From: an uncultured Methylophaga sp.
Lineage (GTDB): Bacteria > Pseudomonadota > Gammaproteobacteria > Nitrosococcales > Methylophagaceae
Direction of reading: 5' to 3'
Assembly: GCF_947259025.1 (NCBI RefSeq)
Contig: NZ_CAMYKO010000005.1
Span: 1 to 64,000, forward strand
Length of the DNA stretch: 64,000 nucleotides
The translations under genes were made by a program, and so were the position numbers. Under the pieces are notes generated by a model. It was not told the DNA's origin. It worked only from the letters and a program-made list of their open reading frames with translations, and searched no databases. This document shows positions 48,585-64,000 of this stretch, piece after piece; the first letter of the stretch is position 1; each line of letters opens with the position of its first letter.

Positions 48585-51884
<3,300 letters not shown>

Positions 51885-54085: not shown

Positions 54086-54104
54086 TATGATATGATGTAT
54101 CATA
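54086..54104. promoter_or_regulatory. Candidate Zur operator
   Basis: A 19-bp dyad, TATGATA-tgatg-TATCATA, in an AT-rich stretch 15 bases before the merC-like start codon. Zur sites in gammaproteobacteria are AT-rich palindromes of similar size (GTTATnnnATAAC type), and this one is flanked by GATAA and ATAAC. The assignment rests mainly on the genes that follow, all typical of zinc-starvation regulons. Confidence 0.5.
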
Positions 54105-54119
54105 ACTGATGAGGCAATA

Positions 54120-54500
54120 ATGAAAGATAATCTAGCGGTGGCTTGTTCCGGACTATGTCTCCTGCACTGTCTGCTACTACCAATATTATTGGCAATGGGC
54201 CTGACAGGGGCGCTCACATCGATGATGGCATCGGAGCTGTTCCATATTCTCATTTTGGTACCGGTTGTTGGACTGGCGCTGTTCAGCCTGCCACGGTCTT
54301 TTTTCCAACATGGTTCTGCATTGCCCATGATTTATGCCGGGCTGGGCATCGGTGGCCTTATTTGCAGCCTGATGGTGTCGGAAGCTTATGAGCTTTGGGT
54401 GACTATCCCGTCAGCATTGCTGGTGATTTGGGCACATCTGTGGAATCGCTGGCTGTTGATTCGTCAGGACTTGCAATGGGCGGTACAGACCGATGGATGA
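54120..54500 (+). CDS. MerC domain membrane protein
   Basis: A 126-residue protein with four hydrophobic segments and the family motif CSGLCLLHCLLLPILL (cysteines at 9, 13 and 17). MerC proteins were first known from mercury operons, but members beside COG0523 and DksA paralogues belong to zinc-starvation regulons. A role in zinc uptake is therefore likely here; no other mercury genes are present. GAGG precedes the ATG. It overlaps the next gene by eight bases. Confidence 0.85.
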   Translation: MKDNLAVACSGLCLLHCLLLPILLAMGLTGALTSMMASELFHILILVPVVGLALFSLPRSFFQHGSALPMIYAGLGIGGLICSLMVSEAYELWVTIPSALLVIWAHLWNRWLLIRQDLQWAVQTDG

Positions 54501-54891
54501 AAAAAGCTTATTAAATGCGTCGGAAGACGACTACATGAATGATGAGCAGCTTGCCTTCTTTGATGCTCGCCTGGTCGAGTTGAGAAAACAGACTCTGGAA
54601 GAAATCGAGTCCATGCGTGCAGAAATCAACCAGGGGCGGGTCAGTGATATGAGTGACAGAGCCACACTGGAAGAAGAGGCGATTATTGCTATACGTATCG
54701 CTGATAGAAAACGTCAGTTGATTCCCAAAATCGATGCAGCACGCCATCGCATCAGACAGGGCGACTATGGTTACTGTCTGCAGACGGGTGAGCCCATCGG
54801 TATTGCCCGCCTGTTGATTCGCCCCACCGCAGAATATTGTGCCGATGTGAAAACCATTAATGAAAGAAAGGAAAGCCAGTATGACCACTGA
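54493..54891 (+). CDS. dksA2: DksA paralogue with reduced zinc finger (DksA2 type)
   Basis: A 132-residue member of the DksA/TraR family. DksA binds the secondary channel of RNA polymerase and works with ppGpp. The coiled-coil tip motif DMSDRA (Asp52, Asp55) is intact. The zinc finger that should be CxxC-x17-CxxC reads Cys95-Leu-Gln-Thr98 and Cys116-Ala-Asp-Val119, so two of four ligands are lost. That is the state of zinc-independent DksA2, which replaces DksA when zinc is scarce. It is coupled to genes on both sides. Confidence 0.9.
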
Positions 54892-56092
54892 TCAGGAAAA
54901 CCGCTTGCCCGTTACCGTTTTATCCGGTTTTCTGGGCGCCGGAAAAACCACCGTCCTGAATCACATTCTGAATAACCGTGAGGGCCGCAAGGTCGCCGTT
55001 ATCGTCAACGATATGAGCGAGATCAATATTGATGCTCAGCAAATCAATAATGACGTTGACTTCAACCGCGCCGAAGAAAAGCTGGTGGAAATGAGCAATG
55101 GCTGCATCTGCTGTACTTTGCGTGAGGATCTGTTGCTGGAAGTCCGACGGCTGGCTGATGAAGGACGTTTTGATTATCTGGTGATCGAATCAACCGGGAT
55201 TTCCGAGCCGTTACCGGTCGCCGAAACCTTCACCTTTGCTGATGAAGATGGTCAGAGCCTTTCCGAAGTGGCCCGTCTGGATACGCTGGTCACTGTCGTT
55301 GATGCGGCCAACTTTCTTAATGACTTCCAGCAGGCCGGTATGCTGCAGGAGACCGGTGAGTCTCTGGGTGAAGACGATAACCGCAGTGTGGCTGACCTGC
55401 TGGTGGACCAGATTGAATTCTGTGATGTGATTTTAATCAGTAAGACGGATCTGTGCAGTCCTGAACAACTCAAAGCCGTGACCGGTGTGATCAAAAGTCT
55501 GAACCCGGAAGCTGAGATTGTCCCTATCGAGCAAGGCCGTGTTGATCTGACTCATGTTTTGGCAACGGGTAAGTTTGACTTTGAAAAAGCCGAACAATCA
55601 GCGGGATGGTTGCAGGAAGCGCGCGGTGAGCATAAACCGGAAACGGAAGAGTATGGCATCAGCAGTTTTACCTACACTGCGCGTAAACCGTTTAACCCAC
55701 AGAAGTTTTATGAGTTTCTGCATCAGGAATGGCCCTGTGGCAAGTTGATTCGCTCTAAGGGTTATTTCTGGCTGGCCAGCCGGCCCCAGTTTGCGGGGCA
55801 GTGGAGTCAGGCAGGGGGCATTGCCCGTCATGGCTTTGCTGGTATGTTCTGGCGAGCAGTACCGGAGAGTCGCTGGCCTCAGGATGAAGAGTCACTGAAA
55901 ATCATCAAAGAGCACTGGGTGGAACCGTTCGGCGATATGCGCCAGGAACTGGTATTTATTGGCCAGAATATGGATGAGGCCCAGGTCAGAAACATGCTGG
56001 ATGAGTGCCTGATCAGTGAGGAAGAATTACTCGCCGGTAAGGCGCTGTGGGAAACCATGACTGATCCGTTTCCACGCTGGGAGCAGGCATAA
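54881..56092 (+). CDS. COG0523-family GTPase, putative zinc metallochaperone
   Basis: A CobW/ZigA-type P-loop GTPase of 403 residues from the ATG at 54881 ([10 protein letters not shown]), which has AAAGGAAAG upstream; an earlier in-frame ATG lies inside dksA2. The P-loop GFLGAGKTT covers 17-25. The metal-binding CxCC motif is [11 protein letters not shown] (Cys75, Cys77, Cys78). The CobW C-terminal domain starts near 265. Such proteins pass zinc to essential enzymes during starvation. Its 5' end overlaps dksA2 by 11 bases and its stop overlaps the DUF1826 start. Confidence 0.92.
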
Positions 56093-56724
56093 TGTCGGCC
56101 CTGGCAGATCGTGTTTATCCGTCACCGGTGACTGTCTCGGAGAGCCCGCTGGTGCTGAGTGAGATATACCAGCCGGACGTGGATTTTGCTATCTGGCAGC
56201 GTGAGTTCAGTGATGAGCTTGAACAGAATATTAACAGCTTACTGGCAAAGCAGACACGATTCAGTTTCAGGGTGATCCTGCGGCCTGAAGAGGTGTCAGA
56301 ATGGTTAAAAGCTAAGTGGCCGGCCAGTCACCTTGAAGCCTTTCAGGCGGATGTTCAGAAGCTGGTCACGATGTTCGCTGACTTGTTTGATCAGAGTCAT
56401 GTGGGAATGAGGCTGGAGCTTGTCGACAAGACCCTGTGTCCGCTGTTTCATGTGGACAAGGTCATGGCACGCATGGTGACAACCTATCACGGCCCGGCAA
56501 CCGAGTGGCTGACGGAAGACAATATCAACCGACAGGCGCTGCAACTTCGTGATCACGAGCATGTTATGCGAGACAAGGACAGATTAGAGGCGGCCAATGC
56601 TGGCGAGGTGCTGCTTTTTAAGGGGCAGGAATGGCCCGGAGAAGAAGTGCAGGGCATTGTTCACCGTTCTGCACAAGCCACAGCAGAAAATCGTCGCTTG
56701 TTGCTGACGCTGGACCTGGTCTGA
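56092..56724 (+). CDS. DUF1826 family protein
   Basis: A 210-residue soluble protein. The family signature is PLFHVDKVMARMVTTYHGPATEWL, containing a conserved His-x-Asp that may bind metal or a 2-oxoacid. DUF1826 genes occur almost always beside COG0523 GTPases in zinc regulons, as here (TAATG coupling). The biochemical role is unknown. Last gene of the plus-strand arm. Confidence 0.88.
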   Translation: MSALADRVYPSPVTVSESPLVLSEIYQPDVDFAIWQREFSDELEQNINSLLAKQTRFSFRVILRPEEVSEWLKAKWPASHLEAFQADVQKLVTMFADLFDQSHVGMRLELVDKTLCPLFHVDKVMARMVTTYHGPATEWLTEDNINRQALQLRDHEHVMRDKDRLEAANAGEVLLFKGQEWPGEEVQGIVHRSAQATAENRRLLLTLDLV

Positions 56725-56812
56725 GTCCTATCTGACAAGGACTGTCTTTTAGTATTTAGCAGGGCGATTGTGACACGCATCGGCCTGCTCACAATGTTGT
56801 CTCGTTCTGGTC

Positions 56813-56929
56813 ATGACTATTAAGCCCCTGAATTCAACATCCCCACTTTCTGCAATTTACCGGCAGTTTCTGCAATTTACCGGCAGTTTCTGCAAACGCT
56901 CGGCGAACAAGGGTTTACCGGTGAAATAG
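56813..56929 (+). pseudogene. Out-of-frame 5' end of the ydiJ-type gene
   Basis: From ATG 56813 the frame reads MTIKPLNSTSPLSAIYRQFLQ and then, because of the duplicated 20-bp unit, leaves the ydiJ frame and stops at TAG 56927-56929. With one repeat unit removed it would continue QTLGEQGFTGEIGQDYATRT and join the main frame, matching the family's N-terminus. It is therefore the displaced start of the following gene. Confidence 0.75.
56847..56895 (+). repeat. 20-bp tandem duplication in the ydiJ 5' end
   Basis: TTTCTGCAATTTACCGGCAG occurs twice without a break (56847-56866, 56867-56886), followed by a partial third copy TTTCTGCAA. Since 20 is not a multiple of three, each unit shifts the reading frame. 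Confidence 0.95.
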
Positions 56930-56952
56930 GGCAGGATTATGCGACGCGTACC

Positions 56953-59892
56953 GTGTTTGCGACGGATAATTCCATCTACCAGCGCCTGCCACAGGCCATT
57001 GTTTTCCCCGCTCATGTGGAAGATGTCCGTTTACTGGCCAGATTATTAGCCAGGCCCGAATTCACCGACATTAGCATTAGCGCCAGAGGAGGCGGCACCG
57101 GCACCAACGGCCAGTCCCTGACAAATGGGGTTGTGGTGGATTTATCCCGCCACCTGAATCAGGTTCTGGAAATCAACGTCGAGCAACAATGGGTCCGGGT
57201 GCAGGCCGGTGTGGTGAAAGATCAATTAAACGCCATGCTCAGGCCGCATGGCCTGTTTTTCTCGCCAGAGTTGTCGACCTCAAACAGGGCGACGATTGGT
57301 GGCATGATCAATACCGATGCCAGTGGACAGGGGAGTTGTGTCTACGGCAAAACCCGCGATCATGTTTTAGAACTGGATACCGTTGTCATCGGGGGGCAAC
57401 AACTACACACGCACACTATTGCTGAGACTGATCTGACGCAACATACTGCCGGGTTATCTGAACATGAAGCATCTTTGTATCATTCTCTGGATAAGCTCAG
57501 CAGTGATAATCAGGCACTGATAGCGTCAACCTTTCCAGCCTTGAATCGCTGCCTGACCGGTTATGACCTGGCTCATCTGAAAGAGGACGGACAGTTCAAT
57601 TTAAATAGTGTGCTGTGCGGCTCCGAGGGCACACTGGGCTTTGTCGTTGAAGCCAAACTGAATTTATTGCCTATTCCCAACTACAGCACGCTGGTGAACC
57701 TTCGCTATCCCAGCTTCATGGATGCATTACGTGATGCCAAAACTTTGATGCAGCACCAGCCGCTTTCTATCGAAACGGTTGATTCACACGTACTGCAACT
57801 GGCTCAAAAAGACAGTGTCTGGCAGAGCGTCTCCGAGTTTTTTCCCGCTGACAGCGGTGAGATCCTGGGCATTAATTTAATCGAGTTCAGCGGCGATAAA
57901 AAATCATCCGTGGATGCTCAGGTGAATGCCTTTTTGGCCTATCTGCAGCAGGATGAAGCCATGCCTCGGGCCGGATATACCCTGGCTGAGGGCGAAGATG
58001 CGGTTAAGCGGGTCTACGCGATGCGTAAACGTGCCGTCGGTTTGCTCGGTAATGCGCAGGGTGAAGCTCGTCCACAGCCATTTATTGAAGATATGGCTGT
58101 ACCGCCGGAAAACCTGGCAGACTTTATTTATGAACTGCGCTCTCTCCTGGACAGCTACCAGTTGCAATATGGCATGTTCGGACACGTTGATGCAGGGGTT
58201 TTGCATGTCAGGCCTGCATTGGATATGAAAGACCCGCAACAAGCTGCTTTAATACGTCCCATCACTGATCAAGCCGTCAAACTGATTGAAAAGTATGGCG
58301 GCCTGTTGTGGGGAGAGCACGGTAAAGGACTGCGCTCTGAGTATGTGCCGCAATTCTTCGGTGACTTGTATCCGGCTATCCAGCAAGTCAAAAGCCTGTT
58401 TGACCCGAATAACCAGTTAAATCCCGGCAAGATCGCCTCGCCCTTGGGGTCTGCCAAAGACGCCTTACTTAAGATCGATGGTGTTGCTTTACGCGGTGAG
58501 TATGACCGACAAATCGCACCCTCAAACTGGCAAAGCTTTGGTGCCAGCATGCACTGTAATGGCAATGGCGCCTGCTATAACTACGACGTCAACGATTCTA
58601 TGTGTCCATCATGGAAAGCCACACGGCAACGTATTCACTCACCCAAAGGGCGTGCTTCGCTGATGCGGGAGTGGTTGCGACTACAACAAGGCAGTGGTGT
58701 GGATGCCGCTGAGCAGGAACGCAGCGCATCCGAACGATCCCTCTGGCAGCAGCTGACACAGGCTGTCACGAAAAAAAGGCGAAAGGCTGAAGATAGCTTC
58801 AATCATGAGGTGTACGACGCTATGGCTGGCTGTCTGGCCTGCAAATCCTGCGTCGGGCAATGTCCTGTCAAAGTGAATATACCTGAGATCCGATCACGGT
58901 TTTTGTATCTCTATCACCAGCGCTACTTCCGACCATTGCGAGAATACCTGGTGGCTTCGCTGGAGTTTTTCATTCCCTATCTGTCACCTTTTTCATCGCT
59001 GTATAACGCGGTGATGGGACAGCCACGGGTGACACGGTTGTTGGCGAAAACCATTGGTATGGTGGACAGCCCCTTATTTGATGCTGAGCATTCAGGCTTT
59101 CAAGCCACGCTTAAGCAATGGGGTGTGAAAACAGCCAGCGTCAGTCAATTATCACAATTGAGTGAGGCAGAGAGAGCGCGCTGTGTTGTCCTGGTTCAGG
59201 ATACCTTCACCCGCTATTTTGATACCCGTGTTCTTGCGGCCCTGATCGAGCTGATGTCTGAATTAGGTTTTTCCGTGTGGTTGGCCAGGCACAGGCCTAA
59301 CGGTAAACCCCTGCATGTCCAGGGTTTCAGAAAAGCCTTTGCCGGGACGGCACAACGCAATATTCAGGCGCTGAACGCGCTGGCGGATCTGAATGTCACG
59401 CTGGTTGGGCTGGATCCGGCAATGACGCTGATTTACCGGCAGGAATATGCGGCGCTACCCAATATCGAATCTGTGCCTGAGGTGTTACTGCCACAGGAAT
59501 GGCTGATAAAGCATGTACCTGAAAGCAGCCCCTCGACAGCGTCAGTGTCATACAAGCTGTTTCTTCACTGTACCGAAAAAACCAATGCGCTGAGCAGTAG
59601 TGCAGATTGGCAGACTGTGTTCCAGCATCTTGGCCTGCCTTTGTCCGTAGTGCCCACAGGCTGTTGCGGCATGTCAGGCACCTATGGTCATGAACTGCGA
59701 AACCTGGACACCTCGACCACCATTTTTCAGCAGTCATGGGCACCTCAACTGGCACAGACTCAGCCGGATGAAGAAGTGTTGGCGACAGGCTACTCCTGCC
59801 GTTCGCAAGTGAAAAGGATGCAGGGTGTGAGGTTAAAGCACCCGGTAGAGGTGTTGCTCGAAGCGGTTAAATGCGGCCGGGCAACAGCTTAG
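56953..59892 (+). CDS. ydiJ: FAD-binding and 4Fe-4S oxidoreductase, YdiJ type (D-2-hydroxyglutarate dehydrogenase-like), N-terminus frameshifted
   Basis: 979 residues from a possible GTG restart. The FAD_binding_4 domain (about 10-230) has SARGGGTGTNGQSL and NRATIGGMINTDASGQGS, followed by the FAD-oxidase C domain (FGHVDAGVLHVRP, WGEHGKGLRSEY). A ferredoxin domain has CLACKSCVGQCPVKVN near 632-647, and a C-terminal CCG domain has PTGCCGMSGTYGHE. This order is that of YdiJ (about 1018 residues), reported to oxidise D-2-hydroxyglutarate. About 47 N-terminal residues are cut off by the repeat upstream. The FAD site itself is retained, so a shortened product could still work. No ribosome site is visible at 56953. 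Confidence 0.8.
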   Translation: MFATDNSIYQRLPQAIVFPAHVEDVRLLARLLARPEFTDISISARGGGTGTNGQSLTNGVVVDLSRHLNQVLEINVEQQWVRVQAGVVKDQLNAMLRPHGLFFSPELSTSNRATIGGMINTDASGQGSCVYGKTRDHVLELDTVVIGGQQLHTHTIAETDLTQHTAGLSEHEASLYHSLDKLSSDNQALIASTFPALNRCLTGYDLAHLKEDGQFNLNSVLCGSEGTLGFVVEAKLNLLPIPNYSTLVNLRYPSFMDALRDAKTLMQHQPLSIETVDSHVLQLAQKDSVWQSVSEFFPADSGEILGINLIEFSGDKKSSVDAQVNAFLAYLQQDEAMPRAGYTLAEGEDAVKRVYAMRKRAVGLLGNAQGEARPQPFIEDMAVPPENLADFIYELRSLLDSYQLQYGMFGHVDAGVLHVRPALDMKDPQQAALIRPITDQAVKLIEKYGGLLWGEHGKGLRSEYVPQFFGDLYPAIQQVKSLFDPNNQLNPGKIASPLGSAKDALLKIDGVALRGEYDRQIAPSNWQSFGASMHCNGNGACYNYDVNDSMCPSWKATRQRIHSPKGRASLMREWLRLQQGSGVDAAEQERSASERSLWQQLTQAVTKKRRKAEDSFNHEVYDAMAGCLACKSCVGQCPVKVNIPEIRSRFLYLYHQRYFRPLREYLVASLEFFIPYLSPFSSLYNAVMGQPRVTRLLAKTIGMVDSPLFDAEHSGFQATLKQWGVKTASVSQLSQLSEAERARCVVLVQDTFTRYFDTRVLAALIELMSELGFSVWLARHRPNGKPLHVQGFRKAFAGTAQRNIQALNALADLNVTLVGLDPAMTLIYRQEYAALPNIESVPEVLLPQEWLIKHVPESSPSTASVSYKLFLHCTEKTNALSSSADWQTVFQHLGLPLSVVPTGCCGMSGTYGHELRNLDTSTTIFQQSWAPQLAQTQPDEEVLATGYSCRSQVKRMQGVRLKHPVEVLLEAVKCGRATA

Positions 59893-59894
59893 AA

Positions 59895-60383
59895 TCAGAG
59901 GATTGTCGGGTTGGGGGCGTCACCGTAGACGTCTTCCGGCTCAAACTTTTTTGACTGCTCGGTAAAGATTAGGTCCGATTGTCGTTCACGGTCTTGCCCG
60001 ACCGGGACACGACGATAAAAGCAGGAGCGATAGCCAACATGGCAGCTTGCGCCTGATCCCAATACCTTCACTGCCAGCCAGATCGCATCCTGGTCGTCAT
60101 CAACACGCATTTCGATGACCTGCTGGACAAGGCCACTGGTCTTACCTTTATGCCACAGTGTTTGCCGTGAGCGGCTCCAATAATGCGCTTCGCCGGTTTC
60201 AATGGTTTTGCTGAGCGCTTCCTGATTCATATAGCCCAGCATCAATACCTCGCCTGAGGCATGGTCGGTGGTAATACAGCTAATCAAGCCTTGCTCATCA
60301 AATTTTGGCGCGAGTTCCTTGCCTTCTTCGACCTGCTCGATGGTTTTCCTCTCGTGAAACAGGGACGGTGATGTTTCGGTCAT
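59895..60383 (-). CDS. hisI: Phosphoribosyl-AMP cyclohydrolase paralogue (HisI2)
   Basis: A 162-residue homologue of HisI, which opens the adenine ring in histidine synthesis and normally needs zinc. [15 protein letters not shown] and the C-terminal [15 protein letters not shown] are conserved. The usual D-C-D-x-D metal motif reads Asp95-Asp96-Asp97-Gln98-Asp99, so one of three zinc cysteines is replaced; Cys114 and Cys121 remain. Together with an extended N-terminus this marks a zinc-regulon paralogue, not the histidine-operon enzyme. GAGGA precedes the ATG; it follows pyrC2 by 18 bases. Confidence 0.9.
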
Positions 60384-60401
60384 GGTAGTGTCCTCAAGTC
60401 G

Positions 60402-61754
60402 TTACTGGTGATAATCAAACTGGATAGGCTGAGCGTCCGGCCGGGTCGACAATGCCTCGTCCCGAACAACGATACTGCCCCGTACAATGGTATGAATCGG
60501 CCAGCCGGTGATGGCTTTGCCATCGTAAGGTGACCAGCCTGACTCACTCGCAACCCAGCTGTTTTCAATAGTGCGTTTAGCGGTGAGATCGACAATAGAA
60601 AAGTCGGCGTCATAGCCCACGGCAATACGTCCTTTACCTTGAATATTGAATAAACGAGCAGGACCCGCACTGGTTAAATCGACCAGACGTTGTAATGTCA
60701 GCCGACCGTGGTGCACATGGTCGAGCATTACCGGTAGCAGGGTTTGTACGCCAGTCATACCGCTGGGGGAGTTGGGATAAGGTTTGGCTTTTTCTTCCAG
60801 GGTGTGGGGCGCATGGTCACTGCCAATCACATCAACGATGCCATTGTTGATGGCACGCCATAAAGCGTCCTGGTGGCGTTTTTCCCTGACCGGCGGGTTC
60901 ATCTGAGCGAGACTGCCCAGACGTTCATAGCAGTCTGGTGCGCTCATGGTCAGATGATGCGGGGTGACCTCAACGCTGACATGGTGCTTATGTTCGGCCA
61001 GGAAGGCGATCTCTTCTTCAGTACTGATATGAAGCACATGTAAGCGCCGACCGGTTTTTTCAGACAAGGCGACGATACGTTTGGTCGCCAATAAGGCACT
61101 CTCCACATCACGCCAGAAGGGGTGCTGAAGTACATCTTTACCGGCCTCAACAAGCTGACGACGCTCACGCAGACGTTGTTCATCTTCAGCATGAATGGCC
61201 ACACGGCGCTGACCTGAGCTCAAAATTCGTTCCAGAATCGTTTGATCATCAGTTAATAAATCACCAAACGAGCTACCCATAAACACTTTCACGCCCGAGC
61301 AACCGGGCAGTAACTCCAACTCGGCCAATTGCTCGGCATTAACGACAGAGCCTCCGAGATAGAAAGCATAGTCACACCAGGCGCTGCGTTTCGCGATATC
61401 CAGCTTGGCACCAAGATCGGCTTTATGCATCGTTAAGGGATTGGTATTGGGCATCTCGAATATGCCGGTAATGCCGCCAAGCACCGCACCTCGTGTACCC
61501 GCTTCAATCGTCTCTTTGTGGGTTAACCCCGGTTCACGGAAGTGTACCTGTGTGTCCATCACGCCGGGCATCACATGCAGACCCTTCACCGATAAGGTGG
61601 TGTCTGCTGACCACTGCGCTTGCAAATCACCCAATGCCACAACACGGCCACCTCGGCAGGCGATATCGATTTTCAGTTCACCAGAGGGAGTGATGACGAT
61701 GCCGTCACTGATCAGTAAGTCAGCATGATGGGATGCTGCTTGCGTATCATTCAT
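60402..61754 (-). CDS. pyrC: Dihydroorotase paralogue (PyrC2 type)
   Basis: A 450-residue class I dihydroorotase, which closes the ring in pyrimidine synthesis. The first metal motif DxHxH reads Asp67-Thr-Gln69-Val-His71, so one histidine ligand is glutamine. Other active-site parts remain: REPGLTHKE, the lysine in [23 protein letters not shown] and [11 protein letters not shown]. Such paralogues occur in zinc regulons and may use another metal or bind zinc differently. Catalytic activity is not proven by sequence. It overlaps thrS2 by eight bases. Confidence 0.9.
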
Positions 61755-63762
61755 GGGTGTCAGCCTGTTGGGGTTGCAATGCTTCCAGCACAGCCTGAAG
61801 TTGCTCAGTCTGTGCCTTTTGATCCGGTGGTTGAATCACATCAGTCATGAGGCTGAGCATCTCAGTGATGGGCAAAGCGCCCAGGTTGTTGCCATTCAGC
61901 TGGCGCAATGAGAGGGTCTGATGTTCTGTCTCTTTATCACCAATAACAGCAATATAGGGAATACGTTGCAGCGTGTGTTGGCGGACCTTGTAGCCTATTT
62001 TTTCTGAGCGGTTATCGATATCGACGCGACATCCTGCGTGGCGAAGTAACTGGGCAACCTGCTCTGCGTAACCGCTGAGGCCCTCATGAATGGTGCAGAT
62101 AATCAGTTGAACAGGGGATAACCAGACGGGCAGCTTGCCTTCATACTGTTCGATAAGAATGCCGATAAAGCGCTCCAGCGAACCCAAAATGGCGCGGTGC
62201 AACAGCACCGGCGGCTGAGGCGCGCCATTATCACCGATGTAACTGAGCCCGAAACGTTCCGGCAGATTCATGTCGACCTGTAGTGTGCCGCACTGCCAGT
62301 CCCGTTTAATCGCATCCTGGAGGACAAACTCCAGTTTGGGCCCGTAAAATGCGCCTTCACCCTCATTGACCTGATATGGCAGCTGTAATTCATGCAGTGC
62401 ATTGATGAGGGCTTGTTCCAGGCGATCCCAGGTTTTATCGGATCCGATTCGGTTATCGGGTCGTGTAGACAGCTTGATTCGGATATCGTCAAAACCCAGC
62501 TGTTTGTAGATGTCCAGCAGCAGGGCAATGGCAGCAACACATTCCGGCTGCATCTGATCAGGCGTGCAGTAGATATGGGCGTCATCCTGGGTAAAATGTC
62601 TGACACGCAGTAAGCCATGCAAGGCACCGGATGGCTCATAGCGATGCACTTTACCAAACTCACTCATTCGAACCGGTAAGTCACGGTAGCTCTTGATGCC
62701 CTGCTTGTAGAGCAACACGCTGCCCGGGCAATTCATGGGCTTCATCGCCAATACCCGACCATCAGCTGTCTCAGTGGTAAACATATGCTCTCGGTAATTG
62801 TGCCAGTGCCCGGAGGTTTCCCAGAGACTTCTGTCCATCACGTCGGGAGAGTTGATTTCCTGGTAGCCTTCATATGACTGTCTGCGGCGCAGATAGGCAA
62901 TTAACTGCTGCAATACCTGCCAGCCCCTAGGCTGCCAGAATACAGAGCCGGGCGCTTCTTCCTGAAAATGAAAAAGATCAAGTTGGCGGCCCAGTTTGCG
63001 GTGATCACGTTTTTCCGCTTGTTCCAACTGATGCAAATGTGCTTTAAGCGCTTTTTTATCCGGCCATGCCGTGCCGTAGACCCGCTGCAGCATTTCATTA
63101 CTGGCATCACCGCGCCAGTAGGCGCCGGCAAGCTTGGTTAATTGAAAGGCCTTACAGAAGGACATATCCGGCACATGCGGACCACGGCACATATCAATAT
63201 ATTCTTCATGGTAATAGAGGCCGACTTCCTTCACGTCGTCAGCCATATCATCAATGATCCGCACTTTGTAAGTTTCGCCGCGGGCTGCAAATATCGCTCT
63301 CGCTTCCGATTTTGCGGTCAGTTTCTTGATAACGCTGTAGCCGGTTTTTGCCAGCGCTTCCATGCGCTGTTGAATGGTGATTAAGTCTTGCGGTGTAAAG
63401 CGATGGTCGCTGTCTATGTCATAGTAAAAACCGTTGTCGATGACTGGACCGATGACCATTCGCGTATCAGGAAACAGTTGTTTGACCGCATGACCGAACA
63501 AATGTGCTGTTGAATGACGGATGATGTCGATGCCCTGTTCACTGTTGGCAAAGATCGGGTCAATCACACAGTCGCTATGGATGACATCACTTAAATCGCG
63601 CGGTTGACCGTTTATCAGCGCCGCCACAACAAAAGGTGTCTTTTTGGGCAGCAGAAGCTGTAATGCTTCTTCAAGACGAACAGGCGTATTGAATGTTTCT
63701 GTCGCCCCTGATTTGAGGGTGACTGTCAGCACAAAGTTGGCCTTGGACGGGGGTAACAACAT
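61747..63762 (-). CDS. thrS: Threonyl-tRNA synthetase paralogue (ThrS2 type)
   Basis: Class II synthetase of up to 671 residues with TGS, editing ([17 protein letters not shown]), catalytic and anticodon domains. The zinc ligands are all kept: cysteine in MKPMNCPGS, histidine in KVHRYEPSG and histidine in [10 protein letters not shown]. So, unlike its neighbours, it has not lost zinc sites. Its place between a carbonic anhydrase and pyrC2 marks it as the zinc-regulon paralogue. A GTG at 63732 with AAGG eight bases upstream is a good alternative start, giving 661 residues and an N-terminus more like other ThrRS. Confidence 0.93.
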
Positions 63763-63767
63763 GGCGG

Positions 63768-64000
63768 CTAAAACTCGTTTTGTATGTTTTTGTAACCCTT
63801 CACCAAGGCATTGTTAGTCAGGGCGACATCTTCTGAAAATGAGCTGGCATCGGCGGAGACTTGCGGGAATTGAGCGAGGTCAGTATCGGCACCGATACGT
63901 TGCGTTGAGGGCACATAAAAGTTAGCTGGCAGTTCACAACCATCAACTACGGCGTTGTAGCGAACCACGCAGCCGCTATTGAGCTTGCAGTTAAACAAGA
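63768..64000 (-). CDS. Gamma-carbonic anhydrase-like protein, C-terminal part
   Basis: The frame runs off the right edge, so only about 77 C-terminal residues are seen. The segment [30 protein letters not shown] has the rhythm of a left-handed beta helix, and the C-terminal [23 protein letters not shown] matches the tail of the long gamma-carbonic anhydrase type. The catalytic histidines lie outside the window. It precedes thrS2 by five bases and is the known type of extra carbonic anhydrase found in zinc regulons. Confidence 0.75.

Follow-up and report, generated by a model that had tools for sequence, protein, structure and literature searches.

A probable Zur-controlled zinc-starvation island with a second formylmethanofuran dehydrogenase subunit A in Methylophaga

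Introduction

Gene sets around COG0523 GTPases are known as Zur regulon clusters in Pseudomonas and other bacteria, and the Zur regulon of P. fluorescens contains, besides COG0523, paralogues of DksA, HisI, PyrC, and gamma-carbonic anhydrase (Haas et al. 2009, PMC2770081). Nine families with paralogues are listed there (HisI, PyrC, Cam, HemB, CysRS, ThrRS, AmiA, QueD, and DksA), and DUF1826 is named in the legend of Figure 4. In Vibrio ZrgABCDE, the genes for ZrgA, an ATP-binding cassette (ABC) ATPase, an ABC permease, and DUF3299/ZrgE stand together under Zur (PMC9817125), and in Francisella novicida a DUF1826 gene and a COG0523 gene are reported to be directly Zur-controlled and to be induced more than 30-fold by a zinc chelator (PMC5786701). 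Here we describe a cluster of this kind on contig NZ_CAMYKO010000005.1 (C5; 826,049 bases) of an uncultured Methylophaga sp. with a genome of 2.70 Mb that is 99.88% complete. The window, the whole stretch of DNA analysed, comprises its first 64,000 nucleotides (C5:1-64000), in which a sequence-only reading had proposed a zinc-economy island and had remarked on similar gene sets around COG0523 genes.

The Methylophaga island carries the same ZrgA, ABC ATPase, ABC permease, and DUF3299/ZrgE genes as Vibrio, whereas no ZrgD was identified among the genes scanned, and the Zrg parts are split over two operators and set among zur and zinc-sparing paralogues. Formylmethanofuran, SufE, and ydiJ, all represented in the island, are absent from the main text of PMC2770081; the HisI paralogues are said there to keep their ligands, whereas the HisI2 described here has lost one Cys. 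In PMC5786701, DUF1826 is linked with the succinylglutamate desuccinylases, with a suggested dependence on zinc, whereas the structural model obtained here points to an iron/2-oxoglutarate-type oxygenase.

The zinc island is real and of a known kind. New, within the literature searched, are its extent and operators in the genus, a probably acquired arm, a Zur-linked second formylmethanofuran dehydrogenase subunit A (FhcA2), and the predictions for DUF1826 and MerC. A search of the open literature, with RegPrecise outside its scope, found no paper that combines the Zur regulon with methylotrophs. Among the matches listed for Zur or zinc with methanol dehydrogenase or methanotrophs, for Methylophaga with zinc and Zur, and for MerC with Zur and zinc uptake, nothing was on the subject, judged by title and opening of the abstract, and the same held for the best 15 of 172 matches for formylmethanofuran or FhcA with Zur or zinc.

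Results and discussion

Gene content and extent of the island

Profile scans located all eight genes named in the sequence-only reading (merC, dksA2, the COG0523 GTPase gene zigA, DUF1826, gamma-carbonic anhydrase, thrS2, pyrC2, and hisI2) where it had placed them. Its end coordinate of 64,000 proved to be the window edge; the cluster runs on to the right and spans about 20 kb, from C5:54089 to about C5:74000, with zur inside. The left arm begins with an operator, followed on the plus strand by merC1, dksA2, zigA, DUF1826, and then ydiJ. The minus-strand arm holds hisI2, pyrC2, thrS2, gamma-carbonic anhydrase, an SBF permease, a flavin adenine dinucleotide (FAD) oxidoreductase, and sufE2. Next come an operator at C5:66916, zur (plus), an operator at C5:67617, fhcA2 (plus), and an operator at C5:69419, and the right end consists of merC2, zrgA, and COG0523b (plus), DUF3299/ZrgE (minus), an operator at C5:72087, and the ABC ATPase and permease (plus, to C5:74002). 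The operator at C5:66916 is the one that had been asked for to the right of the window; it stands before sufE2 and is separated from the carbonic anhydrase by sufE2, the FAD gene, and the permease.

MerC, ZigA, DUF1826, YdiJ, HisI, PyrC2, ThrS, and FhcA scored over curated cut-offs, and gamma-carbonic anhydrase scored below that of its NCBIfam model (108 of 380). ZrgA (PF10986, 137.1 bits), DUF3299 (PF11736), the ABC ATPase (PF00005), and an FtsX/MacB-type permease make up a ZrgABCE set. With zur inside, operators at the arms, and Zrg-type uptake genes adjoining, a Zur-controlled zinc-economy island remains the best reading of the locus, as had been proposed from the window.

Predicted Zur operators

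The 13-bp palindromic pattern GATAYRWTRYATC, written from the island's own five sites, occurred at six places in 2.70 Mb (seven hits, one palindrome being counted on both strands), five of them in the island; the reversed-pattern control gave 0 matches genome-wide. The sixth site (C5:524661) precedes two minus-strand genes, one for a protein of 103 aa and one for a TonB receptor. All six sites are thus in the island or at the TonB-receptor unit, so none is at the standard thrS, hisI, dksA, pyrC, or fhcA1. The 103-aa protein between the sixth operator and the TonB receptor (L080:4314-4625; the letters G, C, and L mark our handles for genomes, contigs, and loci) had no Pfam match. Of the three sigma70-like matches that score highest in the region, one (10/12) has a -10 hexamer that is overlapped by the operator at 54089; overall, such matches were not above chance (16 found, 17.7 expected).

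An independent motif was derived from 10 loci of other genomes, as the best palindrome within the 177-300 bases that precede the leading gene of the MerC/DksA2 arm. When C5:1-93000 was scanned with it, the top four distinct sites were those at 72086 and 54088 (22.1 bits each), 67616 (17.7 bits), and 66915 (16.5 bits), and the TonB-receptor site also reached 22.1 bits. The 15-mer starts 31-37 bases 5' of the chosen start codon at the eight of the 10 training loci that begin with merC, and 102 and 164 bases from it at the two that begin with dksA2. Among relatives, operators recur before MerC, DksA2, FhcA2 or the FhcA2 operon, and DUF3299. Two marks of a Zur regulon were found: zur lies in the cluster, and the palindromic operators are conserved and rare elsewhere.

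The zur adjoining fhcA2 in G002 (L074:10359-10817) lacks H109, C112, H114, and H116, which the other 11 aligned Zur rows have and which a second zur of the same genome, located elsewhere, keeps; the fhcA2-linked protein may possibly have altered zinc sensing.

FhcA2 and COG0523b

FhcA2 matched the subunit A model TIGR03121 with 647.6 bits (cut-off 392.75) and aligned over residues 8-533 of 553 with the solved chain 6s6y (494 bits), with which it shares the same binuclear-site His, Asp, and Lys residues. That site is held by four His, one Asp, and one carboxylated Lys (PMC11656701), and the candidate His, Lys, and Asp columns were invariant in 21/21 distinct FhcA2 sequences. The gatekeeper Lys64 of M. 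wolfei, mapped via the 6s6y alignment, was Asn in all 21 and Lys in 28 of 36 other rows. Unlike genes for 6s6y-type subunits A, fhcA2 lies away from fhcBCD, next to zur and behind a Zur-type operator, a perfect match being present about 90-100 bp before it in this genome, L020, and G002. FhcA1, 51% identical to FhcA2, is encoded within an fhcB-fhcA1-fhcD-fhcC operon at C4, and the 20 kb read there contained no match to the operator pattern with one mismatch or fewer.

FhcA2 was present in 19/24 Methylophaga genomes at 72-100% identity. In 16 of the 19 carriers, zur lay on the same contig within 7.7 kb of fhcA2, adjoining it in G000, G012, and G002 and 6.6-7.7 kb away in the other 13; the two genes were on different contigs in G023 and G001, and zur was not found in G011 (68% complete). 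Of the five genus members without FhcA2, G017 and G018 also had no zur, and G015, G016, and G019 had one. Across the order (63 genomes, including those 24), FhcA2 occurred outside the genus only in G043 (62% identical, behind zigA and DUF1826 and near zur) and G045 (73% identical, with no zur within the 20 kb read). In M. aminisulfidivorans (L022:3480-8988), the stretch from zur to COG0523b-fhcA2 held, behind a perfect operator, an ABC ATPase, a TonB receptor, and two membrane-protein-like frames, and a zur-fhcA2 spacing of about 6.6 kb, as at that locus, was seen in many other Methylophaga.

Phylogenetic analysis of 57 of the 71 extracted FhcA rows (14 identical rows were dropped; L106, the split FhcA of G050, and the partial FhcA1 of G001, G017, and G049 were left out) united the 21 distinct FhcA2 rows in a single branch (support 100/99), separate from the 32 FhcA1 rows of the order (100/100). 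On the FhcA2 side there were also four FhcA from other Proteobacteria; these had been found with FhcA2 as query, and outside relatives of FhcA1 were not sampled alike. FhcA1 was seen in two separate pieces in G050 (C1:520892-522488) and in G049, family relatives with small assemblies.

COG0523b lay within 1.2 kb of fhcA2 at 17/20 fhcA2 loci, some genomes having been fetched twice; it was 3.5 kb away at L073, none was found at L072, and on the short contig L024 a piece was seen at a looser threshold only. It was not found at the five zur loci without fhcA2 (L075, L076, L077, L085, and L086), one of which, L077, is from the same genome as L021, where COG0523b stands beside fhcA2. This co-occurrence suggests that COG0523b may serve FhcA2.

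Zinc ligands and standard copies of the paralogues

Standard copies of thrS, hisI, dksA, and pyrC, on whose presence the sequence-only reading depended, were all found elsewhere in the genome: thrS1 at C2:326799 (58% identical to ThrS2), hisI1 at C4:284560, dksA1 at C5:537051, and a class II pyrC at about C5:351733 (TIGR00856, 472.8 bits). Two further DksA/TraR zinc-finger genes were also present. For the alignments of DksA, HisI, ThrS, and gamma-carbonic anhydrase, we used what we take to be the ligand positions of these families. DksA2 has C95, T98, C116, and V119 at the four-Cys positions of DksA1, and the complete set was seen in 0/15 DksA2 rows (this genome included; some genomes were fetched twice). 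HisI2 has D96 where HisI1 has Cys, with Asp likewise in G002. At the PyrC positions quoted in PMC2770081, PyrC2 has Q69, which turns the HxH motif into QxH, again as in G002. Each of these three proteins, for which the sequence-only reading had proposed lost ligands, thus lacks one or two of them and has a standard copy elsewhere. ThrS2, gamma-carbonic anhydrase, and FhcA2 retain theirs; since the first two do so, not every paralogue works via loss of the zinc site.

We considered the loss of the first His of PyrC2 as a trait specific to zinc starvation and set it aside: the solved chain 2gwn from Porphyromonas has the same QxH, which may therefore be a subfamily trait. A candidate broken pyrC at C4:240101 was also discarded, its single stop being the normal end of a 425-aa gene that adjoins aspartate carbamoyltransferase; the product is PyrC'-like, with most ligand residues gone, as in PyrC'.

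MerC and DUF1826

A search for ZnuA-family proteins, the only zinc importers looked for, found none in the genome and was positive in 11 of 14 controls; this makes MerC a candidate for zinc import. Eight residues (C13, H16, C17, H42, H64, E88, E91, and H106 in MerC2 numbering) were invariant in 11/11 aligned MerC sequences, and the predicted structure of MerC2 was helical, with a mean predicted local distance difference test (pLDDT) score of 77. MerC came first behind an operator in both copies here and at L022, L023, L075, L077, L082, L084, L085, and L086. These loci include the zur islands of G015 and G019, where no FhcA2, ZigA, or DksA2 was seen in the stretches read (19.8 and 5.6 kb). The zur stretches of G003 (L081), G016 (L076), and G043 (L073) yielded no MerC, and none was found beside the fhcA2-linked zur of G002 (L074). 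A role as inner-membrane zinc importer is, on these sequence patterns, a fair hypothesis. The FtsX/MacB-type permease of the Zrg set belongs to a class that, to our knowledge, is not known to import metals.

In DUF1826, H120-x-D122, H191, and R202 were invariant in 13/13 sequences, and the model (pLDDT 87.9) gave fold matches to the double-stranded beta-helix. An Fe(II)/2-oxoglutarate-type oxygenase is predicted.

Proposed mechanism and alternative explanations

The observed gene content, operator sequences, their conservation, the paralogues, and the absence of one segment from relatives were read together, and Zur binding, expression, and every function are inferred. We consider it very probable that Methylophaga carries a Zur-controlled zinc-starvation island of about 20 kb. 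When zinc is plentiful, zinc-loaded Zur would repress the genes by binding palindromes of the TGATAYRWTRTATCA type at their promoters or close by; when zinc falls, Zur would release them and four kinds of gene would be turned on. These would be an import set (ZrgA, ZrgE, ZrgC/B, the distant TonB receptor, and probably MerC), the metal-delivery GTPases ZigA and COG0523b, backup zinc enzymes that either have lost ligands (DksA2, HisI2, and PyrC2) or are metal-flexible or extra copies (gamma-carbonic anhydrase, ThrS2, and FhcA2), and DUF1826, the predicted oxygenase. In the least certain step, the FhcBCD complex encoded at C4 would take up FhcA2 instead of FhcA1, and formaldehyde oxidation would thus be affected by the zinc supply. 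A bolder version, in which zinc status directly gates a main step of formaldehyde oxidation through the release of fhcA2 and the replacement of FhcA1 by COG0523b-loaded FhcA2, zinc enters by a ZnuABC-free route with MerC as inner-membrane importer, and the DUF1826 oxygenase modifies some target, seems to us rather unlikely as a whole.

Several observations weigh against a Zur-controlled island. The pattern GATAYRWTRYATC is circular with respect to the five sites from which it was written, and by the independent motif the fifth operator (69418) scored 11.8 bits, below three background sites (13.0, 12.0, and 12.0 bits); in the 20 kb around fhcA1, the best site of that motif reached 11.7 bits (L071:1320). 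A perfect pattern match lies near fhcA1 in G045 (L079:12153), with no known zinc gene there, and may be due to chance; one-mismatch matches also occur within genes. G016 has zur without any other island gene or perfect operator in the 20 kb read (L076), and the hisI in the zur cluster of G043 retains its Cys. DksA2, Zur, and ZrgA scored under their NCBIfam cut-offs (106.9/115.5, 104.7/167, and 102.4/185 bits), although their Pfam matches exceed the Pfam cut-offs. Because FhcA2 retains all metal ligands, its sequence gives no sign of zinc independence.

This last point also speaks for a different view of FhcA2, as an ordinary second isoenzyme or a paralogue of other function that was carried in beside zur and whose place is unrelated to zinc sparing. 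Besides the ligand columns, kept in 21/21 distinct sequences, its grouping with FhcA of other Proteobacteria is consistent with acquisition from outside, and G015, G016 (94% complete), and G019 manage with zur and without FhcA2. The link between fhcA2 and zur is, on the other side, genus-wide in two layouts, a perfect operator precedes fhcA2 at the three loci named above, and in G043, which is not a member of the genus, zigA, DUF1826, and fhcA2 stand in this order on one strand with a one-mismatch operator upstream; we lean away from the isoenzyme view while taking it seriously. That the MerC proteins serve mercury transport or resistance rather than zinc appears unlikely. Their Pfam family takes its name from mercury resistance, the failure to find MerC in several zur stretches (G003, G016, G043, and L074 of G002) indicates that a zinc island need not include it, and the FAD enzyme in the minus-strand arm matches mercury reductase very weakly (18.8 bits, cut-off 454); no other mercury-resistance gene was identified among the island proteins scanned, however, and the position of MerC directly behind operators in both copies here and in eight further loci, its presence in the G015 and G019 islands, and the failure to find ZnuA all favour zinc. 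It is very improbable that a regulator other than Zur, for instance Fur, acts at the palindromes and that the island answers to a signal other than zinc: another Fur-family protein is encoded at C7:171086 and TGATAYRWTRTATCA is not identical to TGAGTGTTATATTATAACACCCG, the zrg site given for Vibrio in PMC9817125, but the two appear from their letters to share the frame TG.TAT...ATA.CA, the gene content matches Zur regulons, and zur itself lies inside.

Under the Zur-controlled reading, a subunit of a C1-metabolism enzyme would join the zinc proteins that have a Zur-linked spare, and methanol oxidation would thereby be coupled to the zinc in the environment. Testable roles are also proposed for two proteins of unassigned function that occur in or next to Zur regulons: that of an iron/2-oxoglutarate-type oxygenase for DUF1826 and, in a genome in which no ZnuA was found, that of a zinc importer for MerC.

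The 10.4-kb segment and ydiJ

Alignment with relatives revealed that ydiJ and the whole minus-strand arm form one segment. Against L020, whose FhcA2 is 89% identical, the DNA was colinear at 72-79% identity on both flanks, with merC1 absent in L020; one alignment block ended at C5:56725 (L020:6931) and the next began at C5:67124 (L020:7020), so that the 10.4 kb between are missing there, as they are at this place in L077 (G023). In G002, the segment stands at another site, beside another zur and fhcA2. Identity to G002 was 84.4% over the 6.3 kb from ydiJ to thrS2 (C5:57373-63684), 67.5% from the permease to sufE2 (C5:64342-66818), and 64.7-76.1% in the other stretches aligned; gamma-carbonic anhydrase was not seen in the G002 copy. 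The second island of G002 comprises zur, MerC, DUF1826, ZrgA, and DUF3299, with greB as left neighbour, as in this genome. The 10.4-kb arm was therefore probably transferred into this genome as a block, and the ydiJ-to-thrS2 part, the only part at raised identity, appears to reflect a recent exchange between species. Such an insertion suggests that sets of zinc-sparing genes can be passed from one species to another as a unit.

The sequence-only reading had stressed a compact arrangement around ydiJ. The gene does sit between the two arms, but it probably lies outside the regulon: upstream of it, no match to the operator pattern with one mismatch or fewer was found, and a terminator-like hairpin lies between DUF1826 and ydiJ (such hairpins were overall not clearly more frequent than by chance, with 24 found against 17.2 expected, standard deviation 4.8). 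Insertion of the segment explains the layout best. In G045 (L072:9471-14166), a weak operator pair and fhcA2 are followed by ydiJ on the same strand, so that ydiJ may have a zinc link after all. The gene was seen near zinc-island genes in G000, G002, and G045. The first 40 family-model positions are missing, and the frame opens at GTG 56953, 3' of three 20-bp direct repeats (100, 95, and 70%) at the 5' end of ydiJ (window 56844-56903); this may reflect either a genuine mutation or an error in the sequence.

The FAD oxidoreductase, with a CCEDCEC tail, and the SufE paralogue (C5:65319-66911; L002:12319-13911) head the minus-strand arm. The SBF permease had a weak ACR3 match.

Feature coordinates and a neighbouring gene

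Table 1. Features of the island in the window and, where marked C5, beyond it
Feature	Position	Strand	Evidence
Predicted Zur operator GATATGATGTATC before merC1-dksA2-zigA-DUF1826	54089..54101	+	
merC1, MerC-family membrane protein, candidate zinc importer	54120..54500	+	PF03203, 73.1 bits
dksA2, DksA paralogue with 2/4 Cys	54493..54891	+	profile matches and ligand alignment
zigA, predicted COG0523 zinc metallochaperone GTPase	54860..56092 (probable start ATG 54881)	+	NF038288, 698.9 bits (cut-off 600); CxCC motif
DUF1826, predicted Fe(II)/2-oxoglutarate-type oxygenase	56092..56724	+	H120-x-D122, H191, R202
Terminator-like hairpin 3' of DUF1826	56724..56743	+	hairpin scan
Segment with ydiJ and whole minus-strand arm, probable acquired cassette	C5:56726-67123 (56726..64000 in window)	.	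alignment to relatives
ydiJ, D-2-hydroxyglutarate dehydrogenase family	56953..59892	+	NF049975, 1470.6 bits, model positions 41-1017
hisI2, phosphoribosyl-AMP cyclohydrolase paralogue, Cys to D96	59895..60383	-	profile and ligand alignment
pyrC2, dihydroorotase paralogue, QxH for HxH	60402..61754	-	NF006559, 716.6 bits
thrS2, second threonyl-tRNA synthetase, catalytic and editing ligands retained	61747..63762	-	
Gamma-class carbonic anhydrase, three His ligands retained	63768..64000 in window (whole gene C5:63768-64328)	-	
zur	C5:67061-67570 (probable start 67118)	+	PF01475 over cut-off; best NCBIfam match Zur, 104.7 bits

To the left of the island, window positions 48585-51884 encode a strongly acidic protein of 1099 aa with a long Glu-Pro repeat run.

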